Shown: one piece after another, positions 4,299-5,600 of the stretch | Layout of the letters: every line of letters starts with the position of its first letter | Numbering within the stretch: the stretch's first letter is position 1 | The notes under the pieces: model-generated | The model's input: the letters and a program-made list of their open reading frames with translations, nothing else | The model's database searches: none | Told to the model about the DNA's origin: nothing | Translations under genes and position numbers: made by a program | Origin: Candidatus Nanopelagicaceae bacterium | Lineage (GTDB): Bacteria; Actinomycetota; Actinomycetes; Nanopelagicales; Nanopelagicaceae | Assembly: GCA_023260175.1 (NCBI GenBank) | Contig: JALQWD010000099.1 | Coordinates: 1-5,600, forward strand | Direction of reading: 5' to 3' | Length of the DNA: 5,600 bases

Positions 4299-5069
4299 AT
4301 GGGAATCCTCGCTGGCAAGAAAATCTTGGTAACAGGAGTTCTAACTGATACATCAATCGCTTTCCATGTTGCGCGTCTTGCGCAAGAAGAGGGCGCAGAT
4401 ATAGTGCTAACTTCATTTGGTCGCGCCATGAGTATCACAACCCGAATTGCAGGTCGCCTGCCAAAGCCTGCTCCTGTTATCGAACTTGATGTAACTAATG
4501 ACGAACATCTAGCAACACTTGCCGATCGAGTTAAAGAGCACTTGCCGCACCTTGATGGCGTTGTGCACTCAATTGGTTTCGCTCCTGAATCTGCACTTGG
4601 TGGAAAGTTCCTAAGCACCGAGTGGCCAGATGTTGCTACCGCAGTTCAGGTTTCTGCATATTCATATAAGTCATTAACAATGGCTTGCAAACCACTTTTC
4701 CCAGCAACTGGTGCATCAGTAGTCGGTATGGATTTTGATGCACAAGTTGCATGGCCAAAGTACGACTGGATGGGCGTTGCAAAGGCAGCTCTTGAATCAA
4801 CTAATCGCTATCTTGCAAAATTCTTAGGGCCAGAAAATATTCGCTTCAATTTAGTTGCAGCAGGTCCAATTTCGACTATTGCGGCAAAATCAATTCCAGA
4901 TTTTCAGCAGTTCGAACATCTATGGGATTTGCGTTCACCATTGCGCTGGGATGTAACTGATCCAATTCCTGCAGCTAAGGGAGCAATTGCGCTTCTCTCA
5001 GATTGGCTGCCAGCTACAAGTGGCGAGATCATCCACGTTGATGGTGGTTTCCACGCAATGGGCGGCTAG
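4299..5069 (+). CDS. fabI: Enoyl-[acyl-carrier-protein] reductase, InhA/FabI type
   Basis: NADH-dependent reduction of trans-2-enoyl-ACP, the last step of each fatty acid elongation cycle; cytosolic. The 256 residues align by eye with mycobacterial InhA throughout: VTGVLTDTSIAFH (11-23) at the cofactor site, VVHSIGF (88-94) with Ser91 matching InhA Ser94, GMDFD with Phe146 matching InhA Phe149, and the Tyr155-(X6)-Lys162 catalytic pair in YDWMGVAKAALE matching InhA Tyr158/Lys165. NLVAAGPI and LLSDWLPATSGEIIHVDGG follow. From GPI (189-191) to RSP (212-214) it is about ten residues shorter than InhA, in the substrate-binding loop, suggesting ordinary chain lengths rather than very long mycolate precursors. 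Translation starts at the base after the fabG stop, so the two are coupled. A GGGG shortly before the ATG may act as a weak Shine-Dalgarno site. Confidence 0.94.
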   Translation: MGILAGKKILVTGVLTDTSIAFHVARLAQEEGADIVLTSFGRAMSITTRIAGRLPKPAPVIELDVTNDEHLATLADRVKEHLPHLDGVVHSIGFAPESALGGKFLSTEWPDVATAVQVSAYSYKSLTMACKPLFPATGASVVGMDFDAQVAWPKYDWMGVAKAALESTNRYLAKFLGPENIRFNLVAAGPISTIAAKSIPDFQQFEHLWDLRSPLRWDVTDPIPAAKGAIALLSDWLPATSGEIIHVDGGFHAMGG

Positions 5070-5090
5070 GTCGGTCGGCTCCGCACGGAT

Positions 5091-5119
5091 TTGGCGCTTT
5101 AGCCACCCTCACTTAAACT
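5091..5119 (+). promoter_or_regulatory. Putative infC promoter
   Basis: TTGGCG (5091-5096; four of six matches to TTGACA) and TAAACT (5114-5119; fits TAnnnT) are separated by exactly 17 nt, the optimum for the main sigma factor. Transcription would start near 5126, giving an infC leader of about 140 nt. It lies just after the fabI stop, so infC may also receive read-through from fabG-fabI; no clear terminator separates them. Confidence 0.45.
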
Positions 5120-5125
5120 TCTCTC

Positions 5126-5265
5126 ATTGACCGGCTATATGCCGCAAGAGGAGAAATCCCACCTACACCGCCTTGGCGGACTGGTAAAGTCAAAGAAGTT
5201 TTATTACTTCTTTTGCTCTTTTCTTGCGCGTTTGCATGTTAATAACCACGTAAGAAGGAGAAATC
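5126..5265 (+). promoter_or_regulatory. Structured infC leader RNA with two alternative folds
   Basis: The predicted 5' leader of infC has several self-complementary elements. Helix P1 pairs 5143-5154 with 5217-5228: 12 contiguous pairs, 2 of them G-U. It encloses hairpin P2 (CCGCC/GGCGG at 5168-5179, extendable by ACC/GGT to 5161-5185) and hairpin P3 (AAAGAAGT at 5192-5199 with ACTTCTTT at 5206-5213). The same segment 5216-5228 can instead pair with 5249-5260, 12 pairs including 2 G-U and one bulge, which covers the infC Shine-Dalgarno site. The two folds exclude each other. A small CGGC/GCCG hairpin (5132-5144) lies at the 5' side. The pairings are read directly; a regulatory role is inference. 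The ligand, if any, is unknown; IF3, ribosomal protein L20 or the 30S subunit are candidates because infC leaders are regulated by such factors in other bacteria. Confidence 0.5.
5192..5225 (+). terminator. Weak terminator-like hairpin with U-rich tail (possible attenuator)
   Basis: An 8-bp perfect stem (5192-5199 with 5206-5213) with a 6-nt loop is followed by a run of mostly T to 5225, as in an intrinsic terminator. The stem is A/U-rich with only two G-C pairs and the T run is broken by GC and C, so termination would be inefficient. It may be an attenuator inside the infC leader or simply hairpin P3 of the leader fold. Confidence 0.25.
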
Positions 5266-5268
5266 ATC
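5254..5268 (+). promoter_or_regulatory. infC Shine-Dalgarno site and AUC start codon
   Basis: GAAGGAG (5254-5260) is by far the best Shine-Dalgarno match in the window and sits 5 nt before ATC at 5266-5268. An in-frame TAA at 5251-5253 and the absence of ATG, GTG or TTG before 5374 force initiation at a rare codon. ATC 5266 is preferred over the adjacent ATC 5263, which would be only 2 nt from the site. Confidence 0.8.
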
Positions 5269-5600
5269 AGCACAGAACCACGTATCAACGATCGCATTCG
5301 CGTATCGCAGATTCGTTTAATTAATTACGACGGCGAACAAGTCGGCGTAGTTGAGACTGCAACTGCATTACAGATGGCGGACGAAGTTGGGCTAGATCTC
5401 GTAGAGATTGCACCTGATGCAAATCCACCAGTCTGCAAAATCATGGACTTCGGTAAGTACAAGTACGAGATGGCGCAGAAGGCACGCGAACAACGTCAGA
5501 ACCAGACCTACATTGTGGTTAAGGAGATACGTCTTCGTCCGAAGATTGAAAATCATGATTACGAAACAAAACGTAATCAGGTAATCAAATTCATCGGTGC
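5266..5600 (+). CDS. infC: Translation initiation factor IF3 (3' end outside window, AUC start)
   Basis: IF3 binds the 30S subunit, prevents premature 50S joining and rejects wrong start codons and non-initiator tRNA. About 111 of an expected 180 or so residues are present. The N-terminal domain is clear: [37 protein letters not shown], and [15 protein letters not shown] (54-68). The linker ([11 protein letters not shown]) and the start of the C-terminal domain ([19 protein letters not shown]) follow. The frame opens at TAA 5251-5253 and the codons to the conserved region are GAA GGA GAA ATC ATC AGC ACA, so no standard start exists; the first ATG (5374) would remove about 36 conserved residues. 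An AUC start with a strong Shine-Dalgarno site matches the autoregulation known for E. coli infC, which uses AUU: IF3 discriminates against such codons and so limits its own synthesis. rpmI and rplT would be expected next, beyond the window. Confidence 0.93.

Follow-up and report, generated by a model that had tools for sequence, protein, structure and literature searches.

A balanced two-state leader ahead of infC in a Nanopelagicaceae bacterium, probably read by ribosomal protein L20

Introduction

How is the start of infC translation controlled in a Nanopelagicaceae genome where one segment of the leader can pair either with an upstream strand or with the Shine-Dalgarno (SD) region? The question arises at the end of the 5,600-nucleotide stretch of Candidatus Nanopelagicaceae bacterium DNA analysed here (the window). 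An initial annotation, made from the sequence alone, had listed both pairings and had inferred a translational on/off switch from them. Here the pairings are examined in the window and in related leaders, together with the structures that compete with them and the factors that could act on them.

Results

The infC locus

The coordinates of the features discussed below are collected in Table 1. The window carries first SufU-like, SufT-like and ABC transporter genes and next, on the opposite strand, SURF1-like and small membrane-protein genes (all named by eye); fabG-like and fabI-like genes follow, and the 5′ part of infC closes it. The start of infC is AUC, not AUG, and the frame agrees with that of IF3 (TIGR00168). 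By protein, the closest infC relatives belong to Nanopelagicaceae- and Planktophila-type actinobacteria, according to the record titles. The nearest relative found (L104) is 93.2% identical to the window over 487 nt, from position 5111 onward, and its strands T, D and SD are identical to those of the window. Since this likeness starts only at 5111, fabI does not precede infC in the same manner there. The positions of rpmI and rplT fall past the end of the window, and the operon order infC-rpmI-rplT was read from L104, where rplT is the third gene, and from L007 (rpmI and rplT recognised by eye from translations).

To judge from the sequence, the leader together with infC seems to make up a separate unit that has a promoter of its own. 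We infer two promoter hexamers and a transcript start near 5126: TAnnnT-like hexamers occur at the corresponding place in relatives (by eye), and the point at which similarity to L104 begins also supports the −10 hexamer. A promoter scan reported none at 5091-5096. An upstream open reading frame using the GGAG of T was set aside, as by eye no ATG, GTG or TTG lies close behind it in the window.

Table 1. Features of the infC leader in the window (all on the forward strand)
Feature	Position	Strand	Basis or remark
Possible −35 hexamer TTGGCG	5091..5096	+	By eye; matches the −35 consensus at 4 of 6 positions; 17 nt before the −10
Possible −10 hexamer TAAACT	5114..5119	+	Predicts a transcript start near 5126
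Sensor domain (A fold)	5128..5192	+	MFE of 5126-5215 and of the imposed A state
Sensor outer stem UGAC/GUCA	5128-5131 x 5189-5192	+	A fold
Further hairpin of the sensor domain	5132-5144	+	A fold
Strand T	5143..5154	+	5′ half of sensor hairpin; first partner of D
Sensor AAG	5146-5148	+	A fold
Sensor hairpin GGA/UCC	5150-5159; pairs 5150-5152 x 5157-5159	+	A fold
Sensor ACC/GGU	5161-5163 x 5183-5185	+	A fold; encloses inner hairpin 5168-5179
Variable hairpin	5193..5212	+	Between sensor and strand D; MFE structures; relatives' hairpins there by eye
Strand D	5217..5228	+	Partner of T (on state) or of the SD region (off state)
SD-side strand (CGUAAGAAGGAG)	5249..5260	+	Partner of 5216-5228
SD AAGGAG of infC	5255..5260	+	5 nt ahead of AUC
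infC (IF3)	5266..5600	+	AUC start; runs off window end; TIGR00168, 153 bits

Two pairings in the window

Strand T (CGCAAGAGGAGA) and strand D form 12 contiguous pairs, ten Watson-Crick and two G-U (P1), and 5216-5228 forms 12 pairs of the same composition with the SD-side strand, with U5219 bulged (P2); P2 covers the SD sequence. Both sets of pairs are exactly as the initial annotation had given them, and they are not explained by chance: when 5126-5265 was shuffled 1000 times with its dinucleotides kept, 9 shuffles had a stem of at least 12 bp with at most two G-U pairs, and in none of the 1000 did the same segment have a second partner of at least 9 bp as well. The energies of the isolated duplexes are −15.7 kcal/mol for P1 and −11.5 kcal/mol for P2. 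P1 is contained in the minimum free energy (MFE) structures of 5126-5265 and of 5126-5290, the latter a fold that had been proposed as a check, and P2 in those of 5100-5300 and of 5070-5280. A second strand, 5207-5216 (CUUCUUUUGC), also fits T with 10 bp, so that T has two neighbouring downstream partners; this pairing was absent from the earlier list.

A probable sensor hairpin competes for T

T doubles as the 5′ side of a small, strongly conserved hairpin ahead of infC, with the arrangement AAGN-stem-CACC-hairpin-GGU. The fold containing it (the A fold) is further based on the consensus of 43 leaders and on the alignment of Rfam family RF00558 to 5140-5219. The stem of the sensor hairpin has only 3 bp in the window. 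By prediction, it is this hairpin, and not P1, that forms first during transcription: the MFE structure of 5126-5215 contains the hairpin, and the one of 5126-5228 contains P1. The order proposed in the initial annotation is thereby corrected. The hairpin that competes for T is likely a sensor.

Of 80 loci that had been fetched by the IF3 protein alone, 75 have the pattern AAGNGG..CCCACC in the 420 nt ahead of infC; the 80 include L002, whose upstream sequence is only 79 nt long. The 43 aligned leaders, whose rows were selected with this pattern, give the consensus AAGN-[GGA..UCC]-C-[ACC..hairpin..GGU]. Two-sided changes occur in 5 of its 11 pairs, all within the inner hairpin; GGA/UCC and ACC/GGU are nearly invariant in the 43 rows and give no covariation there. 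The phylum was sampled non-randomly through 90 loci (the 30 infC loci with the best scores and, from the next 119 in the list, every other one), 72 of which could be oriented. A looser motif, AAGN-stem-C[AG]CC with a hairpin and GG behind it, is present in 44 of these 72 infC leaders, as compared to 1.2 expected from shuffles. The stem sequences vary among the hits, and pair counts in them are to be read knowing that the hits had been required to pair.

A model of the sensor (R1) matched at E 0.01 in 41 of 296 phylum genomes; the search was strictly filtered and scored 18 candidates in each genome, which makes absence uninformative. Among 30 R1 loci examined, 19 precede an infC-like start, including the 16 best, and for the other 11 no such start was found within 330 nt. 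When nine genomes were scanned with the pattern, its reversed version was equally frequent in the larger ones.

Relation of the sensor to the L20 leader

RF00558, the L20 leader, is the best of 4227 Rfam families for window positions 5100-5300 (21.7 bits, E 0.026; cmscan), and the AAGN-stem-C[A/G]CC-hairpin-GG core is present in the aligned stretch. Neither the window nor any other leader reaches the gathering score of 58.7 bits; the best actinobacterial score seen is that of L333 (56.1 bits, E 1.3e-8). RF00558 fell on the infC leader in 12 of 20 phylum loci chosen for the motif, 7 of them with E <0.05, and in 2 of 20 other loci; among 20 close relatives it did so weakly in 4, with E between 0.09 and 0.79. 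The relation surfaced only with short stretches and permissive thresholds: a search with the whole window gave no RF00558 match at E 1, and Rfam at gathering scores missed the relation in 16 loci. Eight whole genomes yielded five hits below threshold, all of them away from infC; since 12 of 14 control genomes also give a match at E 1, little can be read from weak whole-genome hits. Like the members of RF00558, the leader precedes infC-rpmI-rplT, with infC in the window and rpmI and rplT in L104 and L007; as its score lies below the curated one and no terminator was found in the window, it is not filed as a member. In a passage of PMC7247131, the signature shared for L20 is described as two G-C pairs in a row together with an AA dimer; the AAG and the CC/GG of the sensor would fit it by analogy.

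A second family, RF02830 (Scr1601), sits on the infC leader at L046 (1697-1904), L080 (2688-2911) and L357 (135-294), where the Scr1601 stretch takes in the sensor, AAGUGGAG...CUCCCACC, and the terminator. The window has no RF02830 match (gathering score 100 bits). The Streptomyces "sRNA" Scr1601 is probably an attenuated infC leader, not an independent sRNA.

Both helices in relatives

Relatives of the window were gathered from IF3-protein and family searches. Among the 178 sequences sought, with some places fetched twice, 148 carry the motif and an AT[ACGT] start, and 131 of these are distinct. The 30 sequences left out comprise 23 in which the motif precedes an infC-like N-terminus, with GTC at the start position in 22 of these, and 7, including L002, in which no such arrangement was seen. 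A second group, L034-L080, bears titles of Streptomyces, Propionibacteriaceae, Arthrobacter and others (L043 is itself titled Nanopelagicales); 43 of its 47 loci have the motif within 420 nt, of which 19 are Streptomyces or Streptacidiphilus by title and hence not independent.

The infC start is ATC in the window and in all 131 leaders kept, a pattern having been demanded of AT plus any base, and the spacing from SD to start is 5 in 122 of the 131. GTC replaces ATC at this position in 22 loci, some of them single genomes fetched twice (L004, L010, L108, L112, L113, L122, L137, L140, L142, L160, L180, L182, L189, L202, L206, L207, L212, L213, L225, L226, L235 and L237), with the SD and the downstream protein unchanged. 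GUC would be a very unusual start codon, and GTC is taken here only as the codon at the putative start position.

Pairing of T with D (T:D) has a mean energy of −20.5 kcal/mol in the 131 leaders, with a mean z of −2.3 relative to shuffles of D, and is significant at the 5% level in 97; D usually lies about 60 nt ahead of the start. When T and D were permuted between leaders, using full-length D because pieces of D chosen by their own T would bias the test, the own combinations averaged −20.0 as compared to −17.1 kcal/mol for the permuted ones (38 T types), and none of 10000 permutations was as low. The same holds for L034-L080 (−25.4 as compared to −21.8; 31 types; 0 of 10000), where T:D has a mean z of −2.0 and reaches the 5% level in 25 of 43. 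For single leaders the match is less exclusive: a foreign D was as good in at most 5% of cases in only 28 of 128, and the own D is often not the best. T:D spans the 5′ half of the hairpin and changes in step across relatives. By eye, the loop and its partner occur as ACCGC/GCGGU, AGUCGC/GCGACU, AGCCGC/GCGGCU and CGCAC/GUGCG, and the flank both as CAAG/CUUG and as GAAG/CUUC.

Pairing of D with the SD region (D:SD) is also matched by species, with −14.2 kcal/mol for own and −12.3 for permuted combinations, and −7.9 as compared to −6.8 when the SD itself is taken out (0 of 10000 in both cases). The matching persists after row and column effects are removed. These permutations break relatedness too, so that the P values from both helices are optimistic. 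The best duplex between D and the stretch of up to 45 nt ahead of the start takes in 3 or more of the 5 SD bases in 114 of the 131 leaders. Leader by leader, D:SD is weak relative to shuffles, with 34 of 131 at the 5% level; a shortened SD stretch leaves 17 of 131. D:SD is the weaker of the two helices and the softer half of the case. The search for covariation in homologous leaders suggested earlier thus finds two mutually exclusive helices, both matched by species beyond permutation. It supports the inference of an on/off switch, which had overlooked the third structure competing for T.

A subclade that includes L181, L190 and similar leaders (also L019 and L120) has a main D helix that ends beside the SD, with 11 pairs and a bulge, as in GCUGUUUUCGCU with AGCGAAACAGC. 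None of the 5 SD bases is paired in L181 and L190.

Energy balance and exposure of the SD

Two states were imposed on each leader, T in the sensor hairpin (state A) or T:D (state B), in the 130 of 131 leaders in which the SD was found by pattern. The mean difference between A and B is −0.35 kcal/mol, as compared to −7.8 in 520 shuffled controls, and the two states lie within 4 kcal/mol of each other in 97 of 130 leaders (75%) and in 23% of the controls. For window positions 5126-5280 the ensemble energies are −41.6 (A) and −42.0 kcal/mol (B), that is about 0.4 kcal/mol apart; the earlier description of the folds as closely balanced holds, although the outcome varies with the ends assumed.

With a start at 5126, the predicted probability that the SD of the window is unpaired rises from 0.10 in A to 0.70 in B. 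The corresponding means are 0.28 and 0.52 over 130 leaders and 0.30 and 0.43 in shuffled controls, a shift of 0.24 as compared to 0.14. State B brings a gain of more than 0.2 in 78 of 130 leaders (60%, as compared to 34% of the shuffled ones) and a loss of more than 0.2 in 7; exposure is lost in L019, L120 and L015. These accessibility values hinge on a transcript start that is predicted from promoter-like hexamers and not mapped, and that was chosen after a first analysis, with an arbitrary 5′ end, had given a weaker shift. If transcripts begin about 28 nt further up, the shift is smaller, with 47 of 130 leaders gaining and 7 losing, and neither state exposes the SD of the window (0.08 and 0.17).

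Terminators in the window's relatives and in the phylum

No intrinsic terminator was found on the + strand of window 4900-5600 by the criteria of that scan. By the criteria applied to the relatives, 85 of the 131 have none. The other 46 have some terminator-like hairpin, mostly away from the partner of T, and clear terminators occur in few (L028, L031, L032, L102, L106). Overlap between the T-partner and a terminator 5′ arm is seen in 7 of the 131, and in 35 of 43 leaders of L034-L080. If only the strongest terminator is counted, the T-partner falls on the 5′ arm in 5 of the 131, and in L034-L080 on the 5′ arm in 28 of 43 and on the 3′ arm in 2. The arrangement is less regular in the phylum-wide sample: of 46 leaders, 21 have the T-partner on the 5′ arm, 11 have it on the 3′ arm and 13 elsewhere, and 1 leader has no terminator. 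In most of the other actinobacterial leaders examined, D thus serves as a terminator 5′ arm, which would place transcription under the same sensor there.

Three loci, L352, L353 and L359, keep AAGUGGAGUCCCACUCCCACC with T unpaired with the strongest terminator. They are Mycobacteriales-like, at a guess from the first residues of IF3, and their link between sensor and output may differ.

Discussion

What, then, controls infC at this locus? Sequence comparison and folding predictions together show T to be common to the sensor hairpin and to the T:D helix, and D to be common to T and to the SD region; the predicted alternatives are evenly matched in energy and vary together from species to species. 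A two-state switch is in this sense well supported. We infer L20 as its effector, as the best candidate, and the leader as a whole is probably an L20-controlled leader of infC-rpmI-rplT with covering of the SD as output. In the mechanism that we propose, the sensor hairpin would fold first as the leader is transcribed. When L20 is scarce, being taken up by 23S rRNA, T would quit the hairpin and pair with D, the SD would be open, and infC-rpmI-rplT would be made. When free L20 is plentiful, it would bind the sensor at AAG and at the ACC/GGU pairs, holding T there and leaving D free for 5249-5260; the SD would be covered and infC translation would drop. The initial annotation had a factor turning infC off by opening P1, which this mechanism does not need, since holding T in the hairpin would suffice.

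The alternative that survives best, though we consider it unlikely, is the same two-state switch with another effector on the sensor: IF3, L35, the 30S subunit or a small molecule. The operon also encodes IF3 and L35, and T resembles an SD sequence and contains GGAG, which would suit the 30S subunit. The AUC start also speaks for IF3, as E. coli infC, too, has a non-AUG start, to which its regulation by IF3 is linked. Such feedback by IF3 may also act on top of the switch. That E. coli infC is under IF3 control is stated in part of PMC10931766. Against another effector, the conserved AA dimer and the two G-C pairs beside a hairpin are parts of L20 leaders, according to a passage of PMC7247131, and RF00558 is the best Rfam match.

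An element that works without a ligand, a thermosensor or a purely kinetic device whose hairpins do no more than adjust the basal level of infC translation to temperature or to the speed of transcription, seems improbable: it would accord with the small energy gap between the folds of the window and with an SD-covering helix rich in A and U, but a thermosensor would have no need for the AAGNGG..CCCACC pattern kept in 75 of 80 loci. Still less probable is transcription attenuation in the window too, with T:D working through termination and not through the SD. This suits the five relatives with clear terminators and most of L034-L080, and some kind of terminator-like hairpin is present in 46 relatives; against it stand the 85 without a terminator by the criteria used and the + strand of window 4900-5600, where none was found. 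That D is complementary to T and SD only as a consequence of base composition, purine-rich in T and SD and pyrimidine-rich in D, with no regulation, is the least probable of all, because the species matching survives removal of the SD and of row and column effects and the energy balance is missing in shuffles, even if GGAG is common to T and SD, so that the complement of one partly fits the other, and D:SD is weak relative to shuffles.

Beyond the L20-controlled switch of the window, we lean towards a wider reading, in which infC leaders throughout Actinomycetota share one L20-type sensor whose output was rewired within the phylum: the strand competing with the sensor would be a terminator 5′ arm in most lineages and would have become an anti-SD in Nanopelagicaceae-type leaders, with AAGNGGAG of the sensor as a decoy SD. 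If true, infC-rpmI-rplT would have a regulator in a large phylum, an actinobacterial counterpart of the L20 leader. A catalogued Streptomyces "sRNA" would be recast as the attenuated leader of this operon, and the leaders would form a natural series in which one protein sensor is shifted from transcriptional to translational control.

Comparison with known systems

The L20 leader is described, in passages of the respective sources, as confined to Firmicutes and Thermotogales (PMC3766115) or to Firmicutes only (PMC6097659). In full-text literature searches, which leave most subscription journals outside, no title or beginning of an abstract among the matches listed names an actinobacterial L20 leader. 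The control of rpmI-rplT by L20 in E. coli is translational and acts on the same ribosomal genes, according to part of PMC10931766. It differs from the switch proposed here in that L20 binds a long-range pseudoknot and a hairpin, and in that infC is outside L20 control.

The infC 5′ UTR of M. tuberculosis is also long, 326 nt, and reads from the leader exceed those of the gene 2.6 and 4.9 fold, as reported in a section of PMC3207917. This excess is what attenuation would give. That account, in the part concerned (PMC3207917), leaves sensor and ligand unnamed and suggests a likeness to the infA leader instead. Scr1601 (RF02830), listed as a Streptomyces sRNA, shares the position on the infC leader at the three loci named above.

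The closest likeness is to the L20 leader of Firmicutes (RF00558), as in B. subtilis infC-rpmI-rplT: the operon and the sensor core are the same, and part of PMC10931766 describes alternative folds of one leader, as here. The window departs from it in a score under the gathering cut-off, in having no terminator found, and in its output, which would be the covering of the SD, with the partner of T acting as an anti-SD.
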